From Cafeteria roenbergensis (taxonomy: Eukaryota > Sar > Bigyra > Bicosoecida > Cafeteriaceae): a stretch of DNA of 64,000 nt. The stretch spans positions 124,001 to 188,000 of the forward strand of contig VLTN01000046.1 in NCBI GenBank assembly GCA_008330645.1, in the 5' to 3' direction. The notes beneath the pieces were generated by a model, which was given only the letters and a program-made list of their open reading frames with translations, was not told where the DNA came from and did not search any database. This document shows, in pieces, positions 310 through 51,773 of the stretch. A program made the position numbers and the translations under genes. Numbering within the stretch: position 1 is the stretch's first letter; each line of letters opens with the position of its first letter.

Positions 310-3300
310 ATGGCATCGGCTGCTGTGGAGGTCAACGTGGAGGGGGTGGAGCCGGCGGTGGCCATTTTCTTTGTTGACGTGCGTGCAGTCGCCGAGACCC
401 ACCCAGCCCCCGCTGCGCTCCCTGTGCCACCGACGATGCCGTTGTGCCTGTGCTTGAGGTGGCTGGCCCGCGGCGCGATCCTTGCGGCGCTGCGGCGAGC
501 AAACCGGTGCCCTCGCCCTGTCTTTGCTGCGCCATGCCGCAGGTGGCGGAGGGACTGGCCAAGGACCCCAGTATTGCGGCCAGCGTCCAAGGCGTGATCC
601 AATTTGAGATCAAGGGCAGCAGCGAGTGGGTCGTGGACCTGCGCCGCCCCCCGGGGCGTGTCGTTCGCGTGAGTCGGGTCATTGTTTCTGCAGCACTCAG
701 CGCGTCGAGGCTGCGGGGCCACCTCGTGCAGCTCCCCACCGTGACCTTGCTGCATGGGTCGGTGCCTCAACTGCCGGCTCGTCCCGTGGCCAGCGCTAGC
801 GGGTGGGTGAGGGGCTTGAATGCTGAAGACTGCCATTCCCCCTCCCGCCTCCCTGCGGCGCCGTCGCGCCGAGTGCTCGCTGCCGTCCGACCCCGCCCCC
901 GCCCCCACCCCCGCCCCTCCCCGCAGGGGTCAACCCGGTCGCCAGACACGCGAATCGAGTACGCGAGCGCGCGCGTGTTCGAGGAGATCAACGCCGGCAA
1001 GCGCAGCGCCACCCTTGCCTTCACGACGGGCCAGGTCAAGGTGAAGGGCGACTTCGGGCTCGTGTCGTCGCTGCTCAAGCGGGTCCAGGAGTCCGCCAAG
1101 GCGGCCGACGCGGAGTCGCGGGTCAGGGCAGCGGCAGCGGCCCGCGCAAGGGAGGCCGAGCTCACCCCGCACTACGGCGGCACGAGCAAGGCGTCCGCGG
1201 CGCAGGCCGCGTCGCCTCAGCGCCGTGGCGCCCCCGCCGCTCACGCCAGCAAGGCGTCCTGGGTCGCTGACAAGGACGCCAAGGCGTGCATGGCGTGCGC
1301 AGTCCCCTTCACGTTCATGAATCGGAAGCACCACTGCCGCAGCTGCGGCGGCGTGTTTTGCAATCGCTGCTCCCCGCGCCGCGCCCCGGCCAACCAGCGC
1401 GTCTGCAACAGCTGCTTTGCGGGCTACTACGTGAACAACGGCCAGCCCCAGGCCCACGCGGCAGCAGCTCGCGCGAGGCAGACCCGCAGCGAGTCGGCTG
1501 TGGCAGCCTCCGCCCCGCGCTCCGGCTACGCCCACGCCCACGCAAGCGCTGCCCCGGCGGCCCAGGCCGGCGCTAGGCGCGCGGCGCAGCCATCGACCGG
1601 ACAGCTCCGAGCGGCCCCGCCGCCGCACGAGGGCTCCGGGCACGGCCACCAAGGGCTCCGCGGACCAGCGCCGCCCCCTGGGCCCGGCTCGTCTGTCGAC
1701 GGCCTGGGCGATCAAGTTGCGCTCGTTGGCGGCGCCGGCGCCGACGCCGAGACGGCCCAGCTGGCAGAGCGTATGGCGTTGCTGGACGAGAAGATCCGGC
1801 TTCTGAGGCAGGACGCAGAGGCCGCGACGCTGCCGCTGGCCCTGCCGCCCTCGCTGGAGGGCGCCGCCGCCTCGAGCGAGCTCGCCGCTGTTGTGGTCTA
1901 CCCGCTAGCGTACTTGCTGACGCTGGCCGGCTGGCGAACCGTGCCCATCTCGCTGCTCCTCGCCGGGCTCTGGGCATTCTTTGCCGGCGACCTCTGGCTC
2001 AACCTGTGGGCAGCTTGCCTGCTGCTGGCCGGCGGAGTCCTGTGGTTTGGCAGCGTGGCCACCGGCCCCTGGGAGCTGCTGCGCCGCCGCCTGCGGGTCT
2101 TCGGCACTGCCGGCGTCATCTTTGTGGACTACAAGCTCACCCAGCTGCGCGCCGCGGACCTGCAGGACCAGGAGTCCGGCCCCCTGTACAACGCCGTTCA
2201 CCGCAGGAGCGCCGTGCGGTCCCTCGTCGTGTTCCGGGAGCTGCAGGGCCTGTGGGTGAAGCTCGGGCAGTACCTCTCGTCCCGCGCCGACGTGATGCCG
2301 GACCAGTACACGGAGGTCTACGGCGCTCTTCAGGACAGCATGCCCGCCCGCCCGCTGGCCGAGGCGCAGCAGACTCTGGAGGAGGACCTGAAGAAACCCG
2401 CGACGGAGCTCTTCTCGTATCTGGAGGAGGAGGCCCTGGCGGCCGCGTCCATCGGGCAGGTTCACCGTGCCAAGACCAAGGCGGGTCTGGAGGTGGCGGT
2501 CAAGGTGAAGCACCGCTCCATCGACAAGGTGCTCAACCAGGACCTGGAGAACCTCAACATCATTCTGGGCATGATGGCCGCGCTGGAGCCCGACGTGGAC
2601 ATCTCCTCCGTGATGGAGGAGTGGTCCAAGGAGGTGCGCCGCGAGCTGGACCTCGAGAACGAGGCGAAGCAGATGATGGCCGTCCGCCTCAACCTGATCC
2701 GGGACGGCATCCCTGCCATCGTGCCCCGCATCCCGGACGACATGTTCGGCAAGCGCGTCCTGGTCATGCGCTTCGTCGAGGGCGTCAAGATGAGCACCCC
2801 GCTGGCGGAGCTGGACCGGATGGGCGTCGACCGGGAGGTGATCTGCCGCCACGTGCTGCGCGCCTTTGCCCAGCAGATTTACGTGGACGGCCTCTTCAAC
2901 GGCGACCCGCACCCCGGCAACATCATGGTCATCCAGCGAGGCACGCTGCGCGAGGGAGACCCCGCCGACGTGGCGGAGCACAGGGAGGCCGCCCGCCGCC
3001 GCGCCAGGTCCGGCGCCGTCCCGGCCGCGCTCGGGCCTGCGGGCGACGCTGCCGCCGCCGCGGCGTCCGCTGCCGCCGCCGCAAGCTCGGCTGAGGGCCA
3101 CAGCCCCGTGATGGACGGCGACGACGCCGAGTGGGTGCCCGTGCTGCTGGACTTTGGCCTGACCAAGCTGCTCCCGCGCCACGTGCGGCTGGCCTTCTGC
3201 AAGATGGTGCTCGCGGGGCAGGAGCTGGACGGCAACATGCTGATGGAGGCCTTTGAGGAGATGGGCATGCGCTTCAGCAACGAAAACGTGATGGAGGACA

Positions 3301-5663
3301 TGGAGGGGATCAAGCACATGTTCCGAGACGCCGTGCCAAAGGAGGAGGCCCGCGCACAGGCCAAGGCCAAGGCCAAGGAGGACGACGCGAAGAAGCAAAA
3401 GGCCAAGTCAGCGGGCAAGAAGGAGCGCAAGCTCGAAGCCTGGCCCGGAGAGCTCATCCTCTTCATGCGCGTGTCCGAGCTCCTCAACGGGCTGGCGGCC
3501 CTGCTCGAGGTGCGCGTGCCCACGCTGCAGATCATGGCGGCGGCGGCTCGGGTGGGAATGCTGCGCCGCTTCCCGCTGCCCAAGGTCGCGCCGACACCCA
3601 GCAGGGAGCAGATCGTCGCGTCTCGCCTCCGGCTGCTGCCCGGCGCTGTGTCCGCGGCCCGTGGCGAGATGGACCCAGACATCTTCTCCCGGCCAATGCC
3701 CGGGCTCGCCCCGGTGGACCGGTCCCTGGCCGCAACCGCGGCCGCCGGCGCGGCAGGCGCGCCCGGCGCCGCCTCCAGCCTCAAGTCCATCCCCCAGGCG
3801 CGCACCCCCATTGAGCTGGAGCGCGTGATCAGGGGCACCCTCCGCGCCCTCCGCGCCGACGGAGCCATCCTCGGGGCTCAGGTTGCCGTGTTCAAGAGCG
3901 GCACGTGCGTCGCCGACGTCTGCACGGGCAAGCTCGGCCCGCTCGACCACCGCCGGGTCACGCCTGCCTCGCGCTTTCCCGTGTTCGGCATGGGCCGCGC
4001 CCTGGCCGCAGCGTCGCTCTTCGAGCTCTCGCGCAGGGGCGCCTGCACGCTGGAGGGCGAGGTCGCCAACGTGTGGCCGGAGTTCGCGGCCAAGGGCAAG
4101 GGCGGCTGCACCATATCGGACCTGCTTCGCTGCCGCTCGGGCGTAGAGGGCTGGCTGCCCGACGACGTCCAGGTGTCCTCCCTGCTGAACAGCAAGGACA
4201 TGGCCGCGGCGGTCGCCCAGGCCACGCCCCGCCTCGTGCCGACGCTGGCAGACTTTGACAGGAAGCACAGCCCGGCCTCTGCGTCGGCGTCTGCGGGCCA
4301 GCTGGGCTCGTCCTCGGGCTCGCTCGTGCCGGTCGTGGCAGGGGTTCAGGCAGAGTCCAGGGCCGCCTCGGGCGGCAAGCGCGCCGGGGCGGACGACATG
4401 GACGACGCTTCGTCAGGCGCTTCCGGCGAGGACCTCGCTGTGGGACCGGAGGACGAGGCCGGCGCCGTTGCTGCCGAGGAGGACGTCCTGGCAGGCTCCG
4501 ACGCCGCCGACTCGGGGCCCAGCGCGATGACCTGGAGGGCCCTTCCGCAGGGCCCGACGGCGGACCAGGAGGCGTGCTCCCACCTCTACTTCGGGTGGGG
4601 ATGGGCCGCCGGCGAGCTGCTGCGGCGCGTGGGCGGGGAGGACACTGCGGGCGACGCCGTGGCCGCCAACGTGGCCAAACCCATGCAGGTGCTGGGAGAG
4701 GTCCGTCTCGGGCCGTGCCAGGCGCCCAAGGAGGGCATCGGCTCCACCGGTGCGCCCAGCGAGCGCGTGGAGGGAGGGGGCCAGGACGACGGGGCGGGCA
4801 GCCCTCCCGACGAGGACCTCTTTGCCCCCGTGGCCACCGTGGAGCTGTGCTCCGAAGACGAGCTCCGCACGGCCGCGAAGCGGGCGGCGCGTGCTGGCTC
4901 GGTGGCTGGGGCCCAGTCGGAGGCCTCGGACAGGCGGTCGCTGCTGCGGTCGGCAGGCTCGTCCAGCGGGCTCATGGGGGCAGGCGAGGCCACGGCTGTC
5001 GGCTCGGACGAGCGCGCCGCCGAGGAGGATGACGCCGCCGCCGACGCGCACGTCATGAAGACTCTCATGGCCGCTGTGGCTCTCCACTCCTCGCTCTCGC
5101 GGGCGGGCCTGGGCGACCTCGAGGGCCTCGCCACCGGCGGGAAGGAGCACCTGGTGGACCCCCGGGCGGTCAACGCGAAGCGCATCCGCGGGGCAGACCT
5201 GCCCAACGTCACCGCGTACGCAAGCGCGCGCGCAATGGCCTGCGCTGGGGCGGCGATCATGGAGCGCCTCGCCATCGAGGCGGCTGCCAACCGCTTCGCA
5301 ACCGTGACAGCCGAGGCCGACGGCCGCCTGACCACTCGCATGCACGCCGACGCCAGAGCCGACGCCTCGCCCACGCACGTGACCGTGGGCGCGGTCGCCT
5401 ACGAGGCCTGCAAGCGCCTCGGGTTCCGGTACTGCCCGTTCTCCCCGGCCGCGGGCTGCAGCGTCGAGGCTCGCGCCTTTGCGATGGGCGCCATGGGAGG
5501 CAGCATCCTCATCTGCGACCCCGCCTCGCGCGTGTCGGTGGCGATCACGGTGAACCGCCTGCTGCCGCAGCGCGGCCAGTCGATGCGCCTTGTCCGCGAC
5601 ATTTTCGGGTCGATGGGCTTGGGGGTCCCGCTTGAGTCGCTGGAAGCCGGCTCGTTTGCGTGA
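310..5663 (+). CDS. SCP2-FYVE-membrane-ABC1K-beta-lactamase-like fusion protein
   Basis: Proposed exons are 310-378, 543-668 and 927-5663, giving about 1643 aa. The first two introns (379-542, 258-nt 669-926) were placed because joining the exons restores one SCP2 lipid-binding domain: [15 protein letters not shown], then [14 protein letters not shown], then [19 protein letters not shown] zinc finger follows (about 176-230, core [16 protein letters not shown]), then a Pro/Ala-rich linker and hydrophobic segments (about 382-441). The ABC1/UbiB-type kinase has KLGQ near 509, the Ala-rich loop [11 protein letters not shown], the VAVKVK lysine near 590, NGDPHPGN and DFG near 806. From about 1023 the protein resembles the beta-lactamase-like tail of plant ABC1 proteins such as At5g24810, but the SxxK position reads GMGR (near 1085), so hydrolase activity is doubtful. 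Family knowledge suggests an atypical kinase in lipid or quinone biology; the SCP2 and FYVE parts suggest lipid carriage and PI3P membranes. The start and first exon are inferred; the ATG at 444 or 534 is the fallback. Confidence 0.82.
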
Positions 5664-6165: not shown

Positions 6166-8296
6166 ATGCGCATTGTGATCAAGGTTGGCACGTCATCACT
6201 ACTCAATGACGACGGCTCCGGCGTGCGCCTGGGCGTCCTCGCCCAGCTGTGCGAGACCGTCAAGGAGCTTCGCGCCGCGGGCCACGAAACTGTGATTGTC
6301 AGCTCGGGCGCCGTCGGCATGGGCTGCATCCGCATGGGCATTGACCGCCCCAAGGAGATCGGCAAGGTGCAGGCCATGGCTGCCGTGGGCGGCATGGCAC
6401 TGTCGCGACTGTTCGAACAGGCGTTCGAGCTCACCGGCGGAAAGTGCGCCCAGGTGCTCCTCACGTACTCCAACTTCGGCTCCAAGGTGCAGTTCCGCAC
6501 GGCAAAGGTGAGCGCTCGCCGTGTTTGCGCGCGCGCGCGCGTGGCAGCTTGCCGGGGGGCGTCGGACGCCGCGCAGGCCGAGATGCGATGTTCGCCCGTT
6601 GGGTCACCTCGCCGGAACAGTGGGTCAACGAAGAGCGCCTCGCTCCTCGAGCCCCGGTACTTTTTCTCGGCAAATGTTCCTCCCAGCCCCCTGGCCGCCC
6701 TGCCAACCCGCCCCTCCGCCCCGCCTGCTTGTTCCGCCTCCCATCGTCTCGCAGAGGGCCATCGAGCAGCTCATGGCCATGGAGATCACCCCCATCGTGA
6801 ACGAGAACGATGTTGTCAGCTGCGAGGAGGCAAAGGTGAGGCAGTTGCTCGCGCTCCTCCAGTTTTCCGTTGTGCCCCCTCCCTCGGCCTGCCCCCGGCC
6901 CGCGTAGCGGCCAGGGGGCACAAACGCTTCGTTTCTGGGGCCCTGGTGCGTGGGGCGCCGCGGCCGCGGCATGGGGGCGGTCGCAAGGCGAGCGGGCGAG
7001 CGAGGCCGAGACTTGGCGGCGACGGGGCGAACAGTCCATTGTTCCGGCCGATCGGCGAGCCCCTTCGCGCCGAGTTGGGCGCCGTTCCGCGGCGGGAAGC
7101 CCGGGCCTGGCCGTGCCAAGCTCGCCTTGCCCCGCAAAACCGCCCACGGGCTCGGGATTGGGGCTGCCCTTGCCCTTGCTGACACGCCGGCCAGGCGACG
7201 ACACGATGCGGCGCTTGGGCAGTGCAGCGAGCCGTTCGGTGAAGTTGTTTTTGCTCCTTCGACGTTGGCCCCCCTCTCAACCCCTCCCGTTGCCCGCTTG
7301 TTTCGCGCCCCGCTCGCGCAGATCGGCGACAACGATAACCTTGCCGCAATGGTGGCCACCATGGTGGACGCCGAGGTGCTGGTCCTCCTGACCGACGTGG
7401 ACGGCCTTTACACCGCCGACCCCGGATCCGACCCCTCGGCGCGCCGCATCGCGCGCGTGCACCACGGCTGCCTCCCCGAGCTGCGCCGCCGCTTCGCTGC
7501 CGGCGACGATTTCGACCCGCGTGAGGTGTCCAGCCTCACCAGCTACATCATGCTGGAGGGCGAAGACAAGGACTCGGCTGCCGGGTCCGTCTCTGGAAGC
7601 GAGACGTCTCCCAGGTACGCGGCAGCCGCCAAGGCCGCCGCCAAGGTCGCCACCGACGCCGCTGCCACCGCCGAGACCTACGCTGAGGCCAAGGCCGAGG
7701 CCAAGGCCGAGGCCAAGGCCGAGGCCAAGCCGGAGTCCAAGGCAGCCGCCTCGGGCGAGACGGAGCGCTCCGGCCAGTGGGGCACCGGCGGCATGGGCAC
7801 CAAGCTCGCCGCCGCCCAGATCGCCACCTCGTGCGGCGCCGATACCATCATCATGCGCGCCGAGGACGCGCACAACATCACCGAGCTCGTTGCGGACATC
7901 GTCGCCTCGGGCACCGGCGAGGGCGTGGGCACCATGTTCGCGGCCTCGGAGGAGCCGGCGCGCAAGGGCCACACGCGGTGGCTGACGACGCAGACGCCTC
8001 TGGGGCGCGTGGTTCTGGACGCCGGGGCCGCGGCCGCGGTCGCCGAGCACCGCTCGACTCTCTTCCCGGCCGGCGTGAAGGGCGTTGAGGGCAAGTTCAA
8101 CGTGAACGACGCGGTGGACCTGGTGGACCCGCTTGGGGAGACGGTGGCGCGTGCGCTGGTGAACTACTCGAGCGTGGAGATCGCCCGCATCGCCGGACAC
8201 AGCTCGGCCGAGATCGAGGAGGTTCTCGGCGAGGAGGCCTCTGACGAGGGCGTATGCGGTCGCGCCAACATCGCAGTGATGTGCAGGCAACCGTGA
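6166..8296 (+). CDS. Glutamate 5-kinase with PUA domain, copy 1
   Basis: ATP-dependent phosphorylation of glutamate to gamma-glutamyl phosphate, the first step of proline synthesis. Exons are 6166-6507, 6755-6835 and 7322-8296 (465 aa), all joined in phase 0. Splicing restores the amino-acid-kinase motifs in order: IKVGTSSL at the start, SSGAVGMG, NENDVVS, IGDNDNLAAM, LLTDVDGLYTADP and [15 protein letters not shown]. The C-terminus is a PUA domain ([11 protein letters not shown] to GHSSAEI) as in bacterial ProB. No glutamyl-phosphate reductase is fused, unlike the P5CS of animals and plants. A low-complexity linker with four AEAK-type repeats (12-bp units, about 7690-7737) sits just before GTGGMG. 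The introns are 247 and 486 nt. A paralog with the same intron positions lies at 10636-12638, and 439 bp of the 3' part is nearly identical to it. Confidence 0.93.
7765..8203 (+). repeat. Near-identical tract shared with 12107-12545
   Basis: These 439 bp of G5K copy 1 match 12107-12545 of copy 2 with only two substitutions (A at 7880 versus G at 12222; T at 8152 versus C at 12494). Identity stops abruptly on both sides, although the reading frame and homology continue. This is the signature of recent gene conversion or unequal exchange. Confidence 0.95.
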
Positions 8297-19588: not shown

Positions 19589-22500
19589 CTAGTGCCGCCG
19601 AGGCGGCGGCGACTCGGGCGGGGGCAAGGGGACGACGCCGGGTGGCGCCGCGGCTGACCCCGCGGCGGAGGGCGCGGCGCCCGACGTTGACCAGGACGTC
19701 GCTGCGGGTGAGGCCGCGACGGACAGTGCTGAGCTGGCAGGGGCAGCGCGCGCCATTGCCGGGCGGAGGTCTCGCCCCGAGAGGAGGCTGCCGGTGGTGG
19801 CAGCGGCCCCGTCGCCAGGCAGGTCCAGGAAGTCGTCATCCGGGGCAGTCACGGAGCGGGGCCGGGGGGCCAAGTGGCTTCCCAGGGGGCCGTCGAAGGC
19901 GGTGCCTGTGGGCTCAACCGAGTCAGCTGTGACCTTGGGCGAGTCGACGATGCCGTTGAAGCGGGTGGTGTCGTCGGCGGGGTCGGCGTTGATGGCCATC
20001 GAGACGGCGGGGGAGGAGGGGGGGGCGTCGTAGTCGTCCAGGAGGGCGCCGGCAGCAGCGCGCGTCAGTCCCATGTGCCGGAGGGCTGTGCGGCGGGGGG
20101 TGGTGGCGGCTGTGGTCCTGCTCCCAGGCGAGGGCTGCGGCAGAGCCATGGAGGCCCGGCGGCCAAGGTGCACGGCGCGGACGGCGTTTCGCAGCATGCT
20201 GGTGCGGCGGCGGGTGTGGAAGGAGCGGAGCTTCGACACGGACCGGGACAGGTGAGCGTCGGAGAGGTCGGTGGTCGTGATCCACCGATGGCGCAGAGCC
20301 GCATCGGCCGTGAGCCGCGCTCGCGGGTCCACCCGGAGCAGGCTGGCGACGAAGTCCTTCGCCTCGGGGGAGACCCCTCCCCATTCCCGCTCCGGAAAGG
20401 CGAAGGTGCCGGCCGCGATTTTGCGGAAGAGCTCCCGCTGGTTTGGGGCGTCGAAGGGCATGTAGCCGCAGAGCAGGATGTAGGTCACCACGCCCAGCGA
20501 CCACATGTCCACCGCAGTGCCGTAGGGCTGGTTCTCCACGATCTCGGGCGCGAGGTAGTTTGGGGAGCCCGCCAGCGAGCGGAGGGTCTCGCCCGTGCCG
20601 CTGTGCACCGCGAAGCCAAAGTCGGCGATCTTCATGGGGGCGTCGGGGCGCGTGTCCTGGAACAGGATGTTCTCGGGCTTGATGTCCCGATGCACGATGC
20701 CGTGCTTGTGGAAGTAGCTGACGGCGTCGAGCAGGATGTACACTGCGCCGGCAGCCTTCTTCTCAGAGAACCTGGCCTGCGAAACCACGCGGTCGAACAG
20801 CTCGCCGCCCTTGCAGAGCTCGGTGACGAGGTAGAAGTGCGTGGGGTCGTTGTCGAAGAAGGCCACGAGGCGCACGATGTTGGGGTGCCGCATCCAGCGC
20901 TGCGCGGACACCTCGCCGACCAGGCTCTGCACGTCGTCCCCGGTCATGGCTGCGCGATCGAGCACCTTCACGGCAAACTCCCTGCCCGACCTGCGGTGTC
21001 TCGTCTTGTGCACCACGCTGAAGGCGCCCCTGCCGAGGACCTCCCCCAGCTGGAACAGGTCCTCGAACCGCGCCTGCTGCTGGGTCGACGCGGAGGAGTT
21101 GGACGGCATGCGGGAGGGCCCCTCAGAGCAGTCTGCCGACGTCGACCGGGCCGAGCGGCCGCTTCCAGCGAGGCTGTCGGTGCTGGCGCCGCTCCCAGCC
21201 GCCTCCTTGCTCTCGATGCCCTCGCCGAGCATGGTGCCCCGCAGCGGGACGCGAGGGCCAGCAGACCTAGCGGCCAGGCGCGGCGGAGCAAGCGGGGGCA
21301 CGCCGGCGCCGCGAGCGCCGCTGGCTGGGCTGGAGCTCGCGCCGCCCAGCCGCAAATGGGCGGGCGACGCGCTGATCGACAGGCCCATCCTCCCGGCAGA
21401 GCGGGCGGAGCCAAGCGTCCCTGCAGAGCCCGGGGCGGCAGCAGCGCCCCCGGCCGCCCCGGAGGACGACCCGAGGAGGCCGCCGAGCCTGCCACTGGCG
21501 GAGTCTGGAGTGCGGATGGGCGGAGGCCGAAACCGCGGCGGCGCGGACCGGCCTGTGGCGGGAGTCACTGCAGAGCCAGCGCCCGATGCAGGCGGCGAGA
21601 GCGCAGCGGCCACGGAGCGCTGGCCAGCCGGCGTGATCCTCAGAGGGGAGGGGCGGCCGCGGTGCGGGCTGGGCGTGGTGTTGGCCGAGGTGCCTGGCGT
21701 GGTGCCAGGGGTGGCGGGAGGTGGCGGGCAGCCTGGCGACACGGGAAAGACTGGCCGGCGGGGCGGCGGCGGCGGCTCTGCTGCCTGGGCCTGGGAAGTG
21801 GCGAGCGCGGCGGCAGCGGATGCGACTGCCGTGGCTGCCGATCGCGCCTCGGCAGTCGAAGCCGCAGCCGCCGACACAGGCGTGGTCTCGCAATGCGAGG
21901 CGTCCTCGCCGCCGCTGCCTGCCGACGCGGTCAGAGACTGCAGAGTGCTCGCGCTCCCCGCCCGAGGGGGACTGCCGCCGCCGCTGCCGTTGCCGCCCGC
22001 GCTGCCGCTGCCGCTACTCACGTCCCCGGCCTGCCGGGGTGCCAGCGTAGGCAGCGACGTGGGTGGAGTGGATGCTAGGCCTCGGCCTCGGCCTGGCCTG
22101 GCGGGCGAGGGAGCCGCGTCCGCTGCAGCCAGCGCCCCCGAGCGCTCCACCGCCCTCCTGCTCGACCCTGGAGCCGCGATGGGAGTTCCGGCAGTGCGGG
22201 ACTCTGCACCGGGGGCCCCAGTGACGGCCGCGGGCGCGTGGTCGCCTGGCCCGCTCTGGTCCGGGCCGCGGGTCGCGCCGCGGGCCGAGCCCGCGTGCGC
22301 AGCGGATCCGGCCAGGCGCTCCCTGGCCGCCGTCTGCGCCGCCGCGTGAGCAACGAGGCCGTTCATGGCAGGGGGCGGGCAAGAGGCGGCCGCCCCGCTG
22401 AGCGAGGACATCGCGCGCGCGTTCGCAGCCGCCGTTGTGTCGGAGCGTCGGCGCATCGGCCGAGCGCTCGGTGAGAGCATCGGCCTGCGCGCCTGCTGCT

Positions 22501-23428
22501 TGTGGGAGATGATGCCGAGGAGGCGCTTCACCTGGGCCGCGTGGCCCTGCGACCAGATCTCAGGGTGGGCTGCCTGCGACGCCGCGATGACGCGGAGAAA
22601 GCGGCGGCGGAGCTCGGCGAGCTCCGGGGGCGACTGCGTTGAGTCGTCCACGACGGCGCGCTCGAGCCCCGACAGCGCCACGCCGACCAGCATGGGGCGG
22701 TCGGCGATGCCAAGGACCTCAAGCTCCCGCGAAAAGGGGGCAAGGTCCGCAGTTCCGGGCATTGCAAGGTCGTCGTCCTCGCGGTCCACCGAAGAAGCAT
22801 CCGACGCGCTGCCCTGCGCCGGGCCCGAGCCGGCCGCGCCGCCCGCGAGCCAGCCAAGCCCGGGAAAGCCTCCCAGAGCAGCCTTGCTCCGAGGCTTGGC
22901 AGGGGGCGGGGCCTCGGTGGCGGCCGCGCTGACCCCGGAGCGGACGACCGCGCTGGCCATGGGGTTGATGTGCGTGAGCGGCGCGCCCGTGGCCAGCGCC
23001 CGGCACGCGCTCCGGATAGCGCCCATCCAGTGAGGCAAGTCCTCGCCCACGATCATAAAGTCTTTCTGTCCGGGGAGGGTGAAGACGGCCATTCCCTGCA
23101 CTCCTCGCAGCGGCACGGGAGCAACCGAAGTAATGGAATTCAGGTCGATTCGCCCCCGTGAGCGAATCGCGCTGGGCCGGATGGTGTAGATGAGAAAGTC
23201 TGGCGTCAAGACGAACCACCGCCGGCGCCAGGACTTCCAGAAGCGGTGGCCTTGCTTCGTCAGCCAGCCGGAGCGCAGCACCACAGTCAGCTTGCCGTCG
23301 ATCACGCATGATGCCTCCGTTCCGTCATCCGCCCTCGATGGCCTGGGGGGCTCCGAGAACCGCCGATTTCGCGCCCCTGAGCCCTGCTCCATCACCCAGG
23401 CGGGCGCCGGCGACGCCAGGCAGGACAA
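19589..23428 (-). CDS. PH-domain, CaMK-like serine/threonine kinase
   Basis: A single exon of 1279 aa; an alternative start 12 codons downstream is possible. The N-terminal PH domain (about 53-145) begins SGWLTKQGHRFWKSWRRRWF and ends before MGAIRSACRA. A disordered Ser/Pro/Ala-rich middle of roughly 600 residues follows. The kinase domain (about 795-1050) has LGRGAFSVVH, the AVKVL lysine at 821, HRDIKPEN with Asp915, DFG with Asp936 and SPNYLAPE, so it should be active. GGELFDRVV and the closing LTADAALRHRWI place it in the CaMK group. The C-terminal extension is low-complexity, and no calmodulin-binding helix or EF-hand is obvious. The PH domain suggests phosphoinositide-directed membrane recruitment. 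PH-CaMK combinations occur in stramenopile protists; the substrate is unknown. Confidence 0.9.
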   Translation of the reverse strand: MSCLASPAPAWVMEQGSGARNRRFSEPPRPSRADDGTEASCVIDGKLTVVLRSGWLTKQGHRFWKSWRRRWFVLTPDFLIYTIRPSAIRSRGRIDLNSITSVAPVPLRGVQGMAVFTLPGQKDFMIVGEDLPHWMGAIRSACRALATGAPLTHINPMASAVVRSGVSAAATEAPPPAKPRSKAALGGFPGLGWLAGGAAGSGPAQGSASDASSVDREDDDLAMPGTADLAPFSRELEVLGIADRPMLVGVALSGLERAVVDDSTQSPPELAELRRRFLRVIAASQAAHPEIWSQGHAAQVKRLLGIISHKQQARRPMLSPSARPMRRRSDTTAAANARAMSSLSGAAASCPPPAMNGLVAHAAAQTAARERLAGSAAHAGSARGATRGPDQSGPGDHAPAAVTGAPGAESRTAGTPIAAPGSSRRAVERSGALAAADAAPSPARPGRGRGLASTPPTSLPTLAPRQAGDVSSGSGSAGGNGSGGGSPPRAGSASTLQSLTASAGSGGEDASHCETTPVSAAAASTAEARSAATAVASAAAALATSQAQAAEPPPPPRRPVFPVSPGCPPPPATPGTTPGTSANTTPSPHRGRPSPLRITPAGQRSVAAALSPPASGAGSAVTPATGRSAPPRFRPPPIRTPDSASGRLGGLLGSSSGAAGGAAAAPGSAGTLGSARSAGRMGLSISASPAHLRLGGASSSPASGARGAGVPPLAPPRLAARSAGPRVPLRGTMLGEGIESKEAAGSGASTDSLAGSGRSARSTSADCSEGPSRMPSNSSASTQQQARFEDLFQLGEVLGRGAFSVVHKTRHRRSGREFAVKVLDRAAMTGDDVQSLVGEVSAQRWMRHPNIVRLVAFFDNDPTHFYLVTELCKGGELFDRVVSQARFSEKKAAGAVYILLDAVSYFHKHGIVHRDIKPENILFQDTRPDAPMKIADFGFAVHSGTGETLRSLAGSPNYLAPEIVENQPYGTAVDMWSLGVVTYILLCGYMPFDAPNQRELFRKIAAGTFAFPEREWGGVSPEAKDFVASLLRVDPRARLTADAALRHRWITTTDLSDAHLSRSVSKLRSFHTRRRTSMLRNAVRAVHLGRRASMALPQPSPGSRTTAATTPRRTALRHMGLTRAAAGALLDDYDAPPSSPAVSMAINADPADDTTRFNGIVDSPKVTADSVEPTGTAFDGPLGSHLAPRPRSVTAPDDDFLDLPGDGAAATTGSLLSGRDLRPAMARAAPASSALSVAASPAATSWSTSGAAPSAAGSAAAPPGVVPLPPPESPPPRRH

Positions 23429-24048
23429 GAGGCAGGCGTGTCAGGTGACGGGCACGAACGGGCCGGTTGTCAGCCACGCGCTGCTGCCTCGACACCGCCG
23501 GGCAGACCCCCTCAGCGGCCTGGCGGGGCCGGGGGGCAAGGCTCGCGAAGCGGAGACAAGCGTCCCGGCGCGGCAGGGAGCTTCGGCTCGCCTGGGCGCG
23601 GGCAAGGTGCCATGCTGGCACGCCTCTCCAATGTGGTTCTTTTTCGCTGCTCTGTCGGCAGGCTACGCCGGAAACTGCCTGCCCGCCGCGGACGCGGAGG
23701 CAGCAAATCCGGCTGGCGCTCCCGCACGTCGGCCCCCTGGAACATCTTTGCCCCGCTGTGAGCCCAGCGCCGGTGGTCTCGGCACCAAACTAGTGACCGG
23801 GAGCCATTTCGACCGGAAACGTCATCTAGCGCTCAAGCGACAGCATCGTTGTCCGAGCAAAGCGCGTTGCGCAAGCCCGAGCCCGCCGGAGAAGCGGCAC
23901 CCGTGTGGCGGGACAGAGTTTGCTGTGTGCAGGGGGCGCGCTTTTGGCAAGGGGGGCGCTGCTTGGGAGGCAGCGGCCGCGGCCAGAGGTCACACTTTCA
24001 TGCTGGGGCGCTGCCACGGCCAATCAGCGCATTTGTCCGGCAGCTGGA
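23429..24048. other. Spacer between ALDH 3' end and PH-kinase start
   Basis: About 620 bp between two minus-strand genes. It should contain the kinase promoter and the ALDH polyadenylation region. No exon, repeat or RNA is recognised. Confidence 0.4.
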
Positions 24049-42281: not shown

Positions 42282-45200
42282 ATGGCAGCCGCTAGCTCGG
42301 CTCGCCCCCGCAGCGAGACGGCCCGCCCCAGTTTCGACAGCGTCGACGAGTTTGTGGCCGCCAGCGGGGGCATCCGGGCCATCCACAAGGTGCTCATCGC
42401 GAACAATGGAATCGCAGCAGTCAAGTGCATGCGCTCGGTGCGCACGTGGGCGTACGAGACGTTTGGGGACGACCGAGCGGTGAGACTGGGGGACAGGGGC
42501 AGCACCCGATGAGTTGGCCGGCCCTTCGCCTGGATTGCCCTGAGCTGCGCGGGAACCGTGGCTGCGGGCCGCGCACCCCGGGCCCGGCGGCGCCGCCCCC
42601 TTCCCGCCTGTTGCTGCAATGCTACTCGCGCGACTGGCCCGGGAGCGGGAGGGCGGCGCGGCGAGTGGCTGGGCAGTCTTGGACGGGCTGGCTGCTTGAC
42701 GCGGCGGCAGTCGCACGGGCGCCAGCGCAGAATCGCCGCGCCCGACGAGGCACGAGCGCCGCCGGGCGTGGCGGTTGTGCCCGCCACCGCAAGGCAGGCA
42801 CGCCGGCGGACCGGGGGTGCCTCCGTCCGCCTCGCGGCTGTGACAGCGTGCGCTCGCGCACGCGCCTGCACTCCGTGGTTGCCCCTACGCGCGCGCGTCC
42901 CCGTCCCTCACCCCCCCATCACTCCCCAGTGCGCCCCCGCCCCCGCCCCCGCCCCCGTCTTCGCCCCTTCCTCCCGACACTCCCACCTTCGCCTCCGGAA
43001 TGCTCTCTTCCGTTTGCCGCAGGTTCGCTTCACGGTGATGACCACGCCGGAGGACCTGCGCGCCAACGCCGAGTACGTTCGCATGGCCGACGAGGTCATC
43101 GAGGTTCCGGGCGGCGCCAACAACAACAACTTCGCAAACGTGCGGCTCATCTGCGAGCTTGCGGAGACCTGCCGCGCAGACGCTGTGTGGGCCGGCTGGG
43201 GGCACGCGTCGGAGAACCCTGCGCTGCCAGACGGGCTTCGTGATCGCGGGATCGCCTTCATCGGCCCGCCGTCCGGCCCCATGCGCGCGCTTGGCGACAA
43301 GATCGGGAGCACCATCATCGCTCAGAGCGCCGGGGTGCCAACGATCGCCTGGAACGGCGCCAGCATCCGCGTTGACTACAAGGCCACCGGCCTCAGCGAC
43401 GAGGTTTACGCGCAGGCCAACGTCAAGACTGCAGAGCAGGCGGAGCGCGTGGCTCCAGACGTGGGCTTCCCGCTCATGGTCAAGGCCTCCGAGGGCGGCG
43501 GCGGCAAGGGCATCCGCAAGGTGGAGGACCTGGAGGGGCTGGCCGCGGCCTTCCGCCAGGTGCAGGGCGAGGTTCCCGGTTCGCCCATCTTCCTCATGCG
43601 GCTCGCTTCGCGCGCGCGCCACCTTGAGGTCCAGCTCCTGGCAGACGAGTACGGCGAGGCCATCTCCCTTTCGGGCCGCGACTGCTCCGTGCAGCGCCGC
43701 CACCAGAAGATCGTGGAGGAGGGCCCGCCGGTCGCCGCCGACCCGCACGTGTGGCGCGAGATGGAGCGCGCTGCCGTGCGCCTCGCCAAGGAGGTCGGCT
43801 ACGTCAACGCCGGCACCGTGGAGTACCTGTACACGGAGCACCCGCCCGAGGGCGCCGCCACCAAGTTCGCCTTCCTCGAGCTCAACCCGCGCCTGCAGGT
43901 GGAGCACCCCGTCACTGAAATGATCACCGGCGTCAACTTGCCGGCCGCTCAGCTCCAGGTGGCCATGGGGCTCCCCCTCCACCGCATCGCCGACGTCCGC
44001 AAGCTCTTCGGCGCCTCCGCCACCGGCAGCGAGCCCATCAACTTCGACGAGACGGAGCAGGTGCCGCCCCTCGGCCACGTCATCGCCTCCCGCATCACGG
44101 CAGAGAACCCCGACTCGGGCTTCCAGCCCACCTCGGGCGCCATCACGGAGCTCAACTTCCGCTCGACCCCCAACGTGTGGGGCTACTTCAGCGTGGACTC
44201 CTCCGGGCGAGTGCACGAGTACGCCGACTCGCAGATCGGCCACCTCTTCGGCTTCGGGCCCAGCCGCGAGGCGGCCCGTCGGAACATGGTGCTCGCCCTC
44301 CGGGAGCTCAGCATCCGCGGCGACATCCGCACCACCGTGGAGTACCTGGCGCACATGATGGAGAGCCGAGACTTCCGCCGCAACGCTATCGACACGCAGT
44401 GGCTTGACCGCCGCATCACCGCCAACGTGGGCGTCGGCAAGCCGCCCGCGACCTTCGTCGCCCTCATCGGCGGCGTGGTGCGCTGCCACGTCACCGTCAC
44501 CAGCCGCGCGCGCGAGTTCTGCGCCCAGCTGGAGCGCGGCCAGTGCCCCTCCCCCTCGCTGCTCAGCGTGGAGGACGAGGTCAAGATGGTCTACGAGGGC
44601 GTGCGCTACACGATGCAGGTCGCCCAGGCTGGCGAGAACCTCATCGTCGTGTCCTGCAACGGCGTGTACGTCATGGTGGAGGCGCGCGCCCTGTCCGACG
44701 GCGGCCTCCTCGTCCTCCTCAACGGCCGCTCCCACGTGGTGTACTGGAAGGAGGAGGCGACCGGCCTCCGCGTGGCCCTCGACGGCGCGACCTGCGTCTT
44801 CACGGCCGAGAGCGACCCCTCCAAGCTGCTCGCCGACGTCAGCGGCAAGCTGGTCCGCTTCCTCGTCGAGGACGGCGCACACGTGGACAAGGGCCAGGGC
44901 TACGCAGAGGTGGAGGTGATGAAGATGTACATGCCGCTGCTGGCGCCTGAGGCGGGCGTGCTCCGCCACGTGCAGCCAGAGGGCGCCATCCTCGAGGCGG
45001 GCGCGCTCATCGGCCGCCTGGACCTCGACGACCCCTCCAGAGTGCCGCAGGCGGAGCCTTTCAAGGGCACCCTGGCCGGCGCCGGGCCCGCTCCCGCAGG
45101 CGTTCAGGCTGCGGCTGAGGCCGCGGCCGCGGCCTCAGCCGGCACCTCCGCGTCGTCCGGCGGCGCGGCCGCCCCCGCCCCTGCCTCTTCGTCCGCCGGC

Positions 45201-48200
45201 GAGCACAGCGCCGCCCACTCCACGGGCAGCAGCCCCGGCGCCTCGCCCGCTGAGGCCGCACCGACGGCCAGCCGCCGCGCCCACACCGTGACGCGGTCCG
45301 CCGAGCGCACGCTCCGCTCTGTCCTGAGCGGCTTCGTCGTGCCGAGCGAGGTCTTCGAGGCCGCCGTGAGCGACTTTGACCAGGCCTGGCGGAACGAGCA
45401 CCTCCCGCTGCTGGAGCTGGAGGAGCAGCACGCTGTCCTGGCCGCGCGCCTCCCCGGCACCCTCGGTGCCGACCTCGCACGCATCATCGCGTCCCACCGC
45501 GACGCCATCGGCGCCCGGCGCCCCTCCCTCCTGGCCGACGACGCTGCGCTCGCGGCCGCGGCGGACGGCGCCCTCGCTGGCGCCGCCTCCTCGCCGCAGG
45601 AGCGCCCGGCCTTCCTCGCCAACGACGAGCTCGACCTCCGCCCCGTGCGGGACGCGGTTCAGGCAGCGCTGGCCGCCGTGCCCGCGGGCCGCGAGCGCAC
45701 CACCGCCGCCGCCACCGCCAAGCCCATCCTTGACCTGTGCTCCAAGTACGCCGAGGGGGTGCGGGGCGCGCGCCGCGCCGCCCTCTGCGACCTGCTCGCC
45801 GTCTACTCCGAGGTGGAGCGCCTCTTCGGCGGTGGCACCGAGGGCCGCCGCCGGGAGGACGTGCTCATGGAGCTGCGCGCAGCCAACATGGACGCCGACC
45901 GCGGCGCCGCGGCGCTCGCGCCAGTCTACGCCACCGTCCGCGCCCACGAGCACGTGCGCGAGCGCAACGTCCTGGTGCTCCGCCTGCTCCGCCGCGTCGC
46001 TGCCGAGATCGAGGAGGACAAGAACGCAGCCGCCCTGTCCGCGTCGGCGCTCGCGGCGGCCGCGCAGGAGGCCGGCACCGCCACCGCGGGCGGCCCCTCC
46101 AGCGTGGACGCCTCCTCCGGCGTCGTGGGCGGCGAGGGCCCCGGCTCCCGCGGGGTGAGCCCCGGCCCCAACGCCGCGGACCTGGACGGCAGCGTCGGCC
46201 TCGGCCTCGACGCCGACCAGCTGATCAGCAGCGCCCTCTCCATCGCGGACAACATCTCCGATGCCGGCCGCTCCGACGCCGACAGCGGCCGCGGCACGGA
46301 GGCCGCCTCCCAGGCTGCCTCCGGCGGCGCAGCCGCGGCGGCCTCCCAGGCCGCCTCCGCCGCCCCCACCACCGGCGCATGGGACCGCGAAGAGGCCCTC
46401 CTCTACACCCTGGCGGAGCTGCGCGGCGCTGCCTTCGCCGAGGTCACGCTGGAGGCCCGCCAGCTGCTCATCCTCGCGCGCCAGCCCTCCGCCCGCCAGC
46501 GCGTGGCCGCCATCGAGACCGTTCTGCGCACCATCGCGGCGGCTGGCGACTCACGCCGGTCCGCCCGCCGCCCCGGCGTGGCCGACCACCCGGTCATTGC
46601 GGAGGAGGACGGCACCGCCGACGACGCGACCGTCCCGCCGGCCGACGACGTCGCCCCCCCAGCGTACCCCGCCTCCGCCTCGGCCTCTGCGCGCGCCTCC
46701 TCCCAGATGCGCGGCCTCGTTCGGGCGGAGCTGTCCCTCGTCGACGTCCTCATGCGCTTCTTCGGGCACGAGGACGAAGCGCTCCGTCGCGCAGCCGTGG
46801 AGGTGCACGTGCGCCGGCTCTACCGCGCGTACGCGATCCGCTCCATCACCTTCCCGGATGCCGAGGCCGAGGCCGAGGCCGAGGCCGAGGCTGGGGCCGA
46901 GGCTGGGGCCGGGGCCGGCGCGGAGGCGGCAGCCTCGCCCGCGCTGCTGGAGGCTGTGTTCCGCTTCTCGTCCAGCGGCTCTGCCTCGGACGAGCTCGCT
47001 CCCGACGCCCGCTTCGGGGGCGGCATCGGCAGCTCCTTCGGCAGCGGTCCCAGCTCCGGCGCGTCTGGCGGCTCCGGCGGCGGCATGCGCAAGTCCGGGT
47101 CGCTGGGCGGCGGCAAGCGCTCCCTCCTCTACGCCGCAGGCGCCGCTGACTCGGTGGACAACCTCCAGGCGCTCTCCAAGCGCGCCACTGCCTCTGGCGC
47201 CTCGAGGTCTGGCGCCGCGGACGGCGCCTCCCCGCCGCCGCACGCCGACGGCGGCTCCTCCCTCGGGGCCTCTCAGCGGGTGGGCATCTTCGCCGTGTTC
47301 GCCAACGCGGACGCGCTGGCGGCCGGCGCTGCCCGTCTGGCCGCGCTGGTGCGCCGCAGCGGCGGCGGGTCCGGTGGGCCCGCGGGGGCTGTCCACGTCA
47401 TCCACGTCGCCGTCCTGACCCGGCCGCGCAAGCCGGACCAGCCCGCAGCCGAAACCGACGACGCCGAGTGCTCAGCCGTGCTCAGCGCGGCTGTGGCGCC
47501 GCAGATGGCCGCCCTCACCGCTGCAGGGGTGCGGCGCGTCACGGTGTTGGTGCCGCCCGACTCCTCGTCCGCGGCGTCCCAGCGCGCCCACATGGCGCTG
47601 CCGTCCCACGCCGGCGCAGCCGCTCCCGGCCACGCCGCGCTGCGCTCCAGCACCAGCGTTCACGCCTCGGCAGAGGGCGGCGCCGCCCCCGCGGGCCGGC
47701 ACGGCTCCTCCGGCGGGGCCCGCGTCGCATCGGACCTGCCCGGCTCGGTGGTCCCCGCCTGCATCGGCGGCGTCTGCGGCAACGCCGGCATGGTCGGCGA
47801 CGACGGGCCCGTTGCGATGGCGGCGGCTGCCGCCGCGGCTGCGGCTCGCGACGACGCCTCCTCTGGCGACGCCAGCGATGTCCCCCCTACGCACCCGTGC
47901 GCGTTCACCCTTCGCGGCTCTGCCGGGTTCACGGAGGACGAGCGCGTGCGGCACCTGGAGCCCCCGCTGAGCGGGTACCTGGAGCTGAACCGACTGTCCA
48001 ACTTCAGCGTGCAGCTCGTGCCCACGCCCAACAGGGCGGTGCACGTCTACGAGGCGAGGCCCTCGGGGGCCAAGGCCTCTGCCGGCCGCGGCGGCCCCAG
48101 GAGCCGATTCTTCGTGCGCGCCATCGTGCGCCACACCGAGCGCCTGCCCACGCTGGACTCGGTGCTGGAGCAGTTCCCGGGCCCCGAGCGCATGTTCGTC

Positions 48201-51200
48201 GAGTCGCTCAACGCCCTGGGCGTGGCCATGGGCGGCGCTGCCAAGGCCGGCGCCAGCGGCATGGCCGTGGGCAACAACCACGTCTTCCTCAACGTGCTGC
48301 CCACCGCCTCGGTTCACCCCGAGTACGTCGTCTCCGTCATCCGCACGCTGGCTCGCCGCTACGCCGACCGCCTCCGCGTGCTCCGCGTGGCCAGCGTGGA
48401 GTTCCGCATCCTCACGCGCCTCCGCCCCACCGCCCAGCCGCTCGCGCTGCGCCTCCTCTGCTCCAACCCCACCGGCTACGTGCTGCGGGTGGACGCCTAC
48501 GTCGAGGTGCGCGACGACCGCCGCCCCGACGCCGAGCCCGTGCTCGCGTCCATCCCGACCACGGGCCCCGACTCGGTGGTCATGGGAAGCTACGGCGGCG
48601 ACCCCGCGGACATGGCAGCGGCCCGCGCAGCCGTGCACGCCCAGGCCACGGAGGCGGTTCGGGCCAGCGGCGGCAGCGCTGCCTGGCCCGCCGCCAGCGT
48701 GGGGGCGTTCTCCACCGTGCGCGCCATCGCCCGCACCCACAACGCGTCCCACTCGGGGGGCAGCGACGCGGCCGGCTCCGGCGCGGCCAGCGGGGAGCTG
48801 GACGGCCGCCCCGTGAGCTTCGCCTACCCCGTGACCACGCCCTTCGAGCGCCGCCGGGCGCTGGCGGCGCACATGACCGAGTCCGTCTTCGTGTACGACT
48901 TCATCGAGCTGATGCAGCGCGCCCTGGAGACGGAGTGGGACCGCTACGGCAGGCAGGCGGCCCGCGCGGCGGCCGCTGCGCGCACGGGCGCGGGCTCGGT
49001 GCGCCGGCCGCGCCGCATGCTCGTGGCCAGGGAGCTCGTTCTGGTGCCGCGCCGCGCCGGCGGCGCTGGTGCGGGAGGGGCCACCTCTGCCACCGGCAGC
49101 GCTCCGGCGTCGGACCCCTTCGGAACGGAGCTGGGGGGCGTGTCCGAGGCGTCAATGGCTCGCTTCGCAGCCGTGGAGGGCAGCGACAGCCCGCGCAACG
49201 ACCCCAGCGGGCGGGCCGCCGGCAGCCGCGCTGCCCCTGCTCGCGATGCCAGCGGCGCGAATTCGCAGTCGTCGGACGTCTGGGCCTGGGACATTGAGGA
49301 GACCTCCCGCCCCGCCGGGCAGAACGACATCGCCATGGTCGCCTGGCGCATCACCTTCTTCACCCCCGAGTGCCCCGAGGAGGCCGGCGGCCGCGAGATG
49401 GTCGTCATCGCCAACGACATCACGTCCTCCGCCGGCTCCTTCGGCGTGCTCGAGGACGCCCTCTTCTTCCACGCGTCGCGCCTGGCCCGCGAGGCCGGCC
49501 TCCCCCGCATCTTCCTCGCGGCCAACAGCGGCGCCCGCATCGGCCTCGCCGAGGAGGTCAAGGCTCGCTTCCGCGTGGCCTGGTCCCGCGCCGACGACGC
49601 CACAAAGGGCTTCCGCTACCTCTACCTCTCGCCGGAGGACTACGCCGCGCTCGGCGGCGACAGCGACAGCGCAGACGCGTCCGCGTCGGCGGGCGCTGGC
49701 TCCTCGGCAAGCGGCGCCGGCGCCGGCGCCCAGGGCTCCGGCTCTGCCGGTGGCGCGGCCTCCTCGGGCAGCTCCGGTGCTGCGGCCGGCGGCGAGTCGC
49801 GCGCCGCTGGGGCGTCGGCAGCCAGCTCCGGCTCCACGTCGGGCGGCGATGGCCTGGCGGCGTCGGGCGGCGCCACCGGCCGCCGCGCTCCCAGCGTGCG
49901 CTGCCACCTGGTGGTGGAGGACGGCGAGGAGCGCTGGGTCCTCGATGACGTCATCGGCAAGGACGACGGTTTGGGCGTGGAGAACCTGCGCGGGTCCGGC
50001 CTCATCGCCGGCGAGACGAGCCGCTCCTACCGCGACAACTTCACCCTCACGTACGTCACGGGCCGCTCCGTGGGCATCGGCGCCTACCTGGTGCGGCTGG
50101 GCCAGCGGACGATCCAGAAGCGGACCGCCGCGCCGATCCTGCTCACCGGCTACCAAGCGCTGAACAAGCTCATCGGGGCGGAGGTGTACACGTCTAACGA
50201 GCAGCTGGGCGGGCCCAAGATCATGTACCACAACGGCGTCACGCACCAGGTGGTGGAGGACGACCTGCACGGCATGGCCGCGGTCCTCCGCTGGCTCTCG
50301 TACGTGCCCCGCAGCAAGGGCGCGTCGCTCCCCTTCTCGCCCGGCACGGCCTCCATCGACCCCGTGGACCGCACGATCGGCTTCGTGCCGCGCGGCGAGC
50401 CCTACGACCCGCGCCACCTCATCGCCGGGACCACGGACTCGGCGGCGGACGGGGCGGACGCCGGCACCGCTGCCTCCTCGGCAGCCGCGGCGGGCACCGC
50501 TGCTGCCGCGTCTGACCCCGAGGCCTCCTGGACGTCGGGCTTCTTCGACCGCGGGTCCTGGACCGAGGCGCTGGCCGGGTGGGCCCGCACCGTGGTGGTG
50601 GGCCGCGCGCGCCTGGGAGGCATCCCGCTGGGCGTCATCATCGCGGAGACGCGCACCGTTGCGGCCACGCGCCCCGCGGACCCCGCCACGCCCCAGTCGA
50701 TGGAGACCACGGTGCAGCAGGCCGGCCAGGTCTGGTTCCCGGACTCGGCGTACAAGACCGCGCAGGCGATCCGGGACTTTGCCGCCGAGGAGCTGCCCCT
50801 CTTCATCTTCGCCAACTGGCGCGGCTTCTCGGGCGGGCAGCGCGACATGTTCGACGAGGTGCTCAAGTTCGGCTCCTACATCGTGGACGCCCTCACCGAG
50901 TACAAGCAGCCTGTCTTCGTCTACATCCCGCCCTTTGGCGAGCTGCGCGGCGGGGCGTGGGTGGTGGTGGACCCGACGATCAACGAGGACGTCATGGAGA
51001 TGTACGCTGCGCCCGAGGGCCGTGGCGGCGTGCTGGAGCCGGCCGGTATCGCGTCGATCAAGTTCAAGGCGCGCGACATTCGCGAGGCCGCCTTCAGGCT
51101 CGACCCCGCCATGCAGGCCCTGGCGCACGCGGCGCGCGCTGCCCGCGCCTCGGGCGACGAGGCGGCGGCTGCCAAGGCCGAGGCCGAGGCGGAGGAGCGC

Positions 51201-51773
51201 CTGCGCCGGCTGAGCGGCGTGTTCACCCAGATCTCGCACCACTTCGCCGACCTGCACGACCGCCCCGGCCGCATGATGGCCAAGGGCGTCATCAGGAACG
51301 CCGTGCCCTGGGAGCGCGCCCGGCCCTTCTTCTACTGGCGCCTGCGCCGCCGGCTCGCAGAGTTCGCGCTCCGCGGCCGCATCACCGCCGCAGCGCCGCA
51401 GCTCAGCTTCGCCGCGGCCGGCCACCTCCTGCGCTCCTGGCACGACTCGACGGCCACCTCGCGCGGCAGCACCGGCACGGGCCTGTGGGACCAGGACCTG
51501 CGGGTGTTGCAGTGGCTGGCCGACTCGCGGGACACGCTCGAGGCGCGGGTCGCCGCCCTGCGCCGCGACAGCATCGCCGACCGCGTGCTCGAGCTCGGCA
51601 CCACCGACTCGGGGGCCGCCATCGACGGAATCCTCGCCCTGATCAACCGCCTGCCCGTGGACCAACGCGAGGCTGTGGTGGGAAGGCTGCGCAGGGAAGT
51701 CCTCTTCGGCCCCATGCCCGGAAGCGCCTTCGGGGGCGGCGACCCGCTCCTGGCTGGCCTCCCGCGCCCTTGA
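42282..51773 (+). CDS. ACC: Acetyl-CoA carboxylase, single-chain eukaryotic type
   Basis: Exon 1 is 42282-42479 and exon 2 is 43023-51773 (about 2982 aa); the 543-nt intron lies inside the biotin carboxylase domain and its removal joins FGDDRA to [12 protein letters not shown]. Domains in order: biotin carboxylase (about 24-560, ATP loop [11 protein letters not shown]), biotin carrier with biotin Lys700 in EVMKMYMP, the long central domain, and the carboxyltransferase (about 2150-2860, [15 protein letters not shown] and [13 protein letters not shown]). It makes malonyl-CoA for fatty acid synthesis and elongation. There is no targeting peptide, so it is probably cytosolic. Homologs are usually near 2300 aa; the excess is Ala/Gly/Ser-rich inserts, including an EA-repeat near 46860-46935 and one inside the carboxyltransferase (about 2279-2355). 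Confidence 0.96.

Follow-up and report, generated by a model that had tools for sequence, protein, structure and literature searches.

We analysed a 64,000 nt stretch of the Cafeteria roenbergensis genome (VLTN01000046.1:124001-188000, equivalent to G000:C46:124001-188000; hereafter the window), which has a GC content of 70.7%, and searched the genome as a whole (36,303,456 bases on 167 contigs). Our subject is a gene modelled on the forward strand at positions 310-5663, in which exons 310-378, 543-668 and 927-5663 are joined at two phase-0 GT-AG introns to give a predicted product of 1643 amino acids (aa). The original prediction for this locus was a fusion of five parts, and Pfam searches of the spliced product, together with hydropathy, recovered the same parts in the same order within that interval: an SCP2 domain, a FYVE zinc finger, a hydrophobic block, an ABC1K (UbiB-type) atypical kinase and a beta-lactamase-like domain. 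All features of the gene given below are on the forward strand.

Exon 1 (310-378) comprises 23 codons starting with ATG, contains no recognised domain and is followed directly on its 3' side by the donor GTGCGT. Intron 1 (379-542; 164 bases, phase 0) reads GTGCGT...CCGCAG and intron 2 (669-926; 258 bases, phase 0) reads GTGAGT...CCGCAG. The length of intron 2 is divisible by three, so its retention would leave the reading frame open. From position 927, one stop-free frame runs to the stop codon at 5661-5663 and holds the FYVE finger, the hydrophobic block, the kinase and the beta-lactamase-like domain. Calculated from base composition, the chance of 1578 codons without a stop is 2.4e-13.

The SCP2 domain is divided by intron 2 (564-668 and 927-1070), with its first half in exon 2 (543-668) and its second half opening exon 3 (927-1070). 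An SCP2 match within 310-1100, on which the original prediction had been staked beforehand, is present, with an E-value of 5.9e-9 in the whole product (36.6 bits) and of 1.1e-10 over aa 31-113 when the first 130 aa are searched. N-terminal pieces score 42.1 and 42.6 bits, passing the Pfam gathering cut-off of 21.3. Exon 2 alone has no Pfam match, and it and the exon 3 part alone both fall under the SCP2 cut-off, whereas the match scores 30.2 bits, broken into two stretches, with intron 2 retained and 42.6 bits, as a single stretch, once the intron is removed. The first 11-12 of the 101 profile positions are unmatched. We rejected a chance match to SCP2 on the E-value of 1.1e-10 and the contiguity of the domain once spliced. 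The best match of the joined piece in the PDB is an SCP2 chain (2c0l; E 1.9e-5). Elsewhere in the genome, a frame with two tandem SCP2 stretches (L016:2826-3968, on G000:C8) provided the sole matches in a six-frame SCP2 search; this search overlooked the exon-split copy in the window, so others may have been overlooked too.

The FYVE zinc finger (1260-1421, aa 177-230; Pfam E 1.8e-16) contains WVAD at aa 177, RKHHCR at aa 198 and RVC at aa 223, which we take to be the WxxD, R(R/K)HHCR and RVC motifs of the family, as well as CxxC pairs at aa 186, 202, 210 and 225 (eight cysteines). Its best match among structural chains is the finger of Vps27 that binds phosphatidylinositol 3-phosphate (PI3P) (1vfy; E 2.3e-13). 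Judged by its motifs, the finger carries the PI3P-binding residues, in keeping with the PI3P type originally proposed. PI3P is found in the cytosolic leaflet of endosomes, and the genome has PI3K-C2 at four places and FYVE at eight, which makes a PI3P system likely. A linker of approximately 147 residues, rich in alanine, glycine and proline (1422-1862), separates the finger from a hydrophobic block at about 1863-2069 (about aa 378-446), where hydropathy indicates two or three possible membrane segments that appear in a structural model as low-confidence helices.

The ABC1K region (2205-3704) is supported by Pfam and by the match of a structural model to COQ8A. It includes the ABC1 Pfam match (2328-2948, aa 533-739; E 6.8e-54), followed by a low-complexity insert at approximately 2949-3119. 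The region contains KLGQ at aa 510 (nt 2259), the alanine-rich loop AAASIGQ at aa 570, VAVK at aa 588, GDPHPGN at aa 724 and DFG at aa 807 (nt 3150); the first two presumably represent the KxGQ motif and Ala-rich loop of ABC1K/UbiB proteins. All 32 aligned sequences share the DP-PGN residues and, within DFG, the D and the G. VAVK is likewise invariant in the 32, in part through selection, as EVAVKV[KQ]H was one of the two patterns used in the scan for relatives. On this alignment, the ABC1K domain holds the active-site residues of its family. A 608-residue model that includes the kinase and the membrane helices had a mean predicted local distance difference test score (pLDDT) of 76, with 211 residues, mostly in the kinase, at 90 or above, and matched COQ8A (7udq) with an E-value of 5.3e-15 and a TM-score of 0.75 by target length. 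All 12 structure matches at an E-value of 0.001 or better were to COQ8A, MSMEG_1954 or Rv3197. The window kinase thus resembles COQ8A and UbiB in its KxGQ motif, Ala-rich loop and modelled fold, but it scores 195.5 bits against the UbiB equivalog TIGR01982 (NCBIfam), for which the cut-off is 487.55. To our knowledge, SCP2, FYVE and beta-lactamase parts are absent from the COQ8A and UbiB families.

The beta-lactamase-like domain (3831-5660; Pfam E 9.1e-17) is matched at 3831-4232 (aa 1034-1167) and in a second stretch, and has low-complexity inserts at approximately 4240-4560 and 4700-5040. The genome also contains a sister gene (C4:19168-23835; L017:2669-7336), which matches both ABC1 (E 8.7e-40) and Beta-lactamase (E 6.1e-23; 1555 aa scanned). 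In the sister gene the motifs FSATK, YLN and FGHAG, which we take to be the SxxK, YxN and HxG motifs of the serine beta-lactamase/LACTB family, are intact; the window gene has FGMGR (3984), YFG (4587) and AMGA (5481) in their place. The earlier description of this domain as dead therefore holds, and with three catalytic motifs lost it should lack the serine hydrolase activity of that family. The domain has matches to esterase A-type chains (5gkv), with a best E-value of 1.2e-8 in that group, and a single-sequence model of it (mean pLDDT 37) was uninformative on the fold. The sister gene resembles the window gene in its hydrophobic segments (two stretches), its ABC1K and its beta-lactamase domain, and the two kinases are 36% identical over 387 columns. 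It differs in keeping the catalytic motifs and in lacking detected SCP2 and FYVE domains: its frame has no Pfam match to either, and no FYVE motif was found in the 2.6 kb 5' of it by text pattern in three forward frames, where an exon-split SCP2 is possible. The simplest history suggested by these sequences is that a kinase-hydrolase gene was duplicated and that one copy gained SCP2 and FYVE and lost the hydrolase residues.

The scan for prokaryotic relatives with the two motif patterns found 82, of which 80 were kept. A kinase tree of 80 rows was constructed from 75 of these 80 prokaryotic loci and five host ABC1 genes; L023, L053, L071, L095 and L097, whose frames are cut short, and the host ABC1 places on C47, C10, C25 and C59 were left out. 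The window and sister kinases join with support of 100/97. The window kinase lies on one of the tree's long branches, and a long-branch join warning applies elsewhere in the tree (L018 with L027). By path length, the nearest prokaryotic rows are a Dehalococcoidia metagenome-assembled genome (MAG; L020) and a Myxococcales MAG (L025), neither of which has a further fused domain by Pfam. The top-scoring prokaryotic relative of the kinase, L020:2701-4275, is 35% identical over query residues 8-491. None of the 80 relatives has a kinase frame that runs on for the length of a beta-lactamase domain (measured from where the match begins, the longest extends 548 residues, and four of the 80 frames are cut by the 3' end of a contig), and none of the 10 that were scanned with Pfam has SCP2, FYVE or beta-lactamase at an E-value of 0.01 within the scanned frames. 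Acquisition of the whole fusion from prokaryotes is therefore unsupported among the 80 relatives by frame length and among the 10 by Pfam. Among viral contigs, one scan gave no pattern match, and another gave 33 pattern matches and no relatives.

A possible explanation of the five-part order is that the locus produces two transcripts, one for an SCP2-FYVE protein and one for a separate protein with the membrane segments, ABC1K and beta-lactamase-like domain, and that the open frame between them is a by-product of GC-richness. At the local base composition, the 148-codon stretch between the FYVE finger and the membrane block would be stop-free with a probability of 0.066, so the open frame alone does not prove that FYVE and kinase are joined, and the sister gene indicates that the kinase part can stand without SCP2 and FYVE. 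Because an open frame is weak evidence over so short a linker, we scored codon use against a model whose training set was four coding stretches elsewhere (the acetyl-CoA carboxylase and PH-kinase genes of the window, a Dcp2 gene identified by Pfam, and the sister gene) and compared scores with 2000 shuffles. Both linker halves appear coding in the same frame (z 3.57 and 5.06), as do the second SCP2 half (z 4.63), the FYVE finger (z 4.01) and exon 1 (z 4.06), with none of the 2000 shuffles as high in any of these cases; the last 621 bases of the gene reach z 10.02. Intron 2 read in the gene frame gives z 1.93 (48/2000 shuffles as high). The three frames of the 3' flank give z 0.02, 2.37 and 2.59 (2/2000 shuffles for the last), which indicates that the shuffle null is imperfectly calibrated and that a z near 2.5 means little. 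In an earlier, cruder codon test, all six frames of intron 1 scored below 0, and the gene frame was the top of six in all blocks of 543-5660, intron 2 included, though in the first linker half it led by just 0.07 bits per codon, a weakness that favours two transcripts. We rejected a chance open frame on codon use. Given also that FYVE and kinase share a frame with no stop in it and need no intron to be joined, two transcripts appear quite improbable. Exon 1 is the least certain piece of the gene model, as it was placed by codon use and splice-site letters without homology. Our tentative reading is that 310-5663 is one gene for one membrane-anchored lipid-handling protein, which forms part of the explanation developed below.

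Known systems provide a guide to what such a protein might do. The SCP2 domain of Escherichia coli UbiJ is described as binding coenzyme Q intermediates, and UbiB as having ATPase activity and as an accessory factor needed in the same pathway; a single E. coli deletion covers ubiE-ubiJ-ubiB-ubiD (PMC6747719). The window protein resembles this pair in combining an SCP2 domain with an ABC1K domain, which in E. coli belong to a lipid binder and an ATPase of one lipid pathway (PMC6747719), but it unites in one chain what are there two proteins, and the SCP2 parts give no sequence evidence of a recent common origin. The yeast UbiB proteins Cqd1 and Cqd2 affect the cellular distribution of coenzyme Q in a manner that depends on their kinase/ATPase domains (PMC8346625), and when overexpressed they tether mitochondria to the endoplasmic reticulum (PMC10214851). 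The shared pathway of UbiJ and UbiB and the effects of the yeast proteins on coenzyme Q and membrane tethering suggest a UbiB-like ATPase with its own carrier. The best overall explanation, in our tentative view, is a UbiB-like ATPase that is anchored in a membrane and equipped with both a PI3P tether and, in cis, a lipid carrier, although we regard this as somewhat short of probable. The hydrophobic block would anchor the protein in one membrane so that SCP2, FYVE and the kinase all face the cytosol. The FYVE finger would bind PI3P on an endosome or phagosome, whether close to the anchor or on the other side of a gap. Using ATP, the ABC1K domain would extract an isoprenoid-like lipid from the bilayer in the manner put forward for COQ8; the SCP2 pocket would accept the extracted lipid and pass it on, and the dead beta-lactamase-like domain would contribute to binding or serve as a scaffold. 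Roles that bacteria divide between UbiJ (SCP2) and UbiB (ABC1K) would thereby be combined in a single polypeptide addressed to endosomes. The more specific proposal of a self-contained, ATP-driven extractor and carrier, in which the UbiB-type ATPase extracts a prenyl lipid from the membrane that holds the anchor and loads SCP2, and FYVE directs delivery to the endosomes or phagosomes of this bacterivorous flagellate, is speculative and rather unlikely. If true, it would do in a single chain what UbiJ and UbiB do as a pair, and would be a UbiB protein active outside mitochondria and plastids.

Several observations weigh against this explanation. The function is predicted from sequence, as are the lipid and the localisation, and the characterised relatives cited here are mitochondrial. 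The number of membrane passes may be two or three, and an odd number would place the kinase across the membrane; the helices concerned were modelled with pLDDT values in the 50s. In the PDB, the SCP2 piece best matches chains of peroxisomal type (SCP2, HSD17B4-type and the like), none of them named UbiJ, and the piece has no match at an E-value of 0.01 in NCBIfam, a library not confirmed to contain a UbiJ model, which limits the link to UbiJ to a common superfamily. A competing reading is that an ABC1K protein bearing additional domains works in mitochondria and supplies coenzyme Q like COQ8 or Cqd1/Cqd2: plant ABC1Ks are mostly chloroplast or mitochondrial (PMC12568898), and Cqd1 and Cqd2 are mitochondrial in yeast (PMC8346625). 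However, the first 40 residues carry a net charge of -5 (if exon 1 is right), unlike a mitochondrial presequence, and the FYVE residues point to PI3P in the cytosolic leaflet of endosomes, which leads us to consider a mitochondrial protein unlikely. No match to the light-harvesting family was found in the genome, which makes a plastid unlikely, and we rejected a plastid kinase on this basis. The original prediction of a kinase on PI3P endosomal membranes rather than in mitochondria or plastids is thus favoured in its negative part by presequence charge and light-harvesting search, whereas its endosomal placement of the kinase does not follow, because an anchor and a FYVE finger on a 147-residue linker would equally fit the tethering of two membranes. 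Such a contact-site role would resemble that of protrudin, which combines a FYVE finger with a membrane hairpin.

Were anchor and FYVE finger instead in the same PI3P membrane, the protein could be an endosome-resident regulator, in which SCP2 senses lipid and controls ABC1K without lipid transport. FYVE-protein kinase fusions do exist, as in two AGC kinases of Phytophthora infestans (PMC3019232), and Leishmania LdBPK_281800.1 (PX, FYVE, AGC kinase domain and lipocalin) resembles the window protein in having a lipid-binding pocket, a FYVE finger and a kinase in one protein, though its pocket is a lipocalin and its kinase is of a different family (PMC10341546). Since UbiB relatives in the cited literature work in lipid synthesis or distribution, we regard a regulator as doubtful. 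The loss of all three beta-lactamase-family catalytic motifs and the position of the kinase row among the long branches, with an unusual letter composition, could also indicate decay of the last domain, with the entire gene heading for loss. This seems very improbable given the 1578 codons without a stop, the strongly coding last 621 bases and the intact kinase motifs.

The membrane-anchored ATPase and carrier would be of interest because the exit of coenzyme Q from its membrane has been called a "longstanding mystery" in which UbiB proteins are implicated (PMC8346625). The presence of a UbiB-type kinase, a lipid carrier and a membrane address in one chain hints, as gene fusions can, that extracting and carrying the lipid are parts of one job, and the fusion offers a single protein in which this idea could be assayed. 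Plant At5g24810-type proteins have a kinase followed by a beta-lactamase-like domain; compared with these, the window protein has SCP2, FYVE and a membrane block added in front and has lost the catalytic motifs. At5g24810 is listed in the literature as ABC1K11. We found no description of the SCP2-FYVE-ABC1K-beta-lactamase architecture in the accessible text of open-licence literature, and the gene may already be deposited, unnamed, with published assemblies.

Other genes were identified in the window. Downstream, a gene at 6166-8296 resembles glutamate 5-kinase, with introns judged by eye and a frame at 6908-8293 that matches AA_kinase and PUA. A protein kinase preceded by a PH domain is located on the minus strand at 19592-23440, and a multidomain acetyl-CoA carboxylase at 42513-51773 occupies a single frame of 3086 aa with seven Pfam families.

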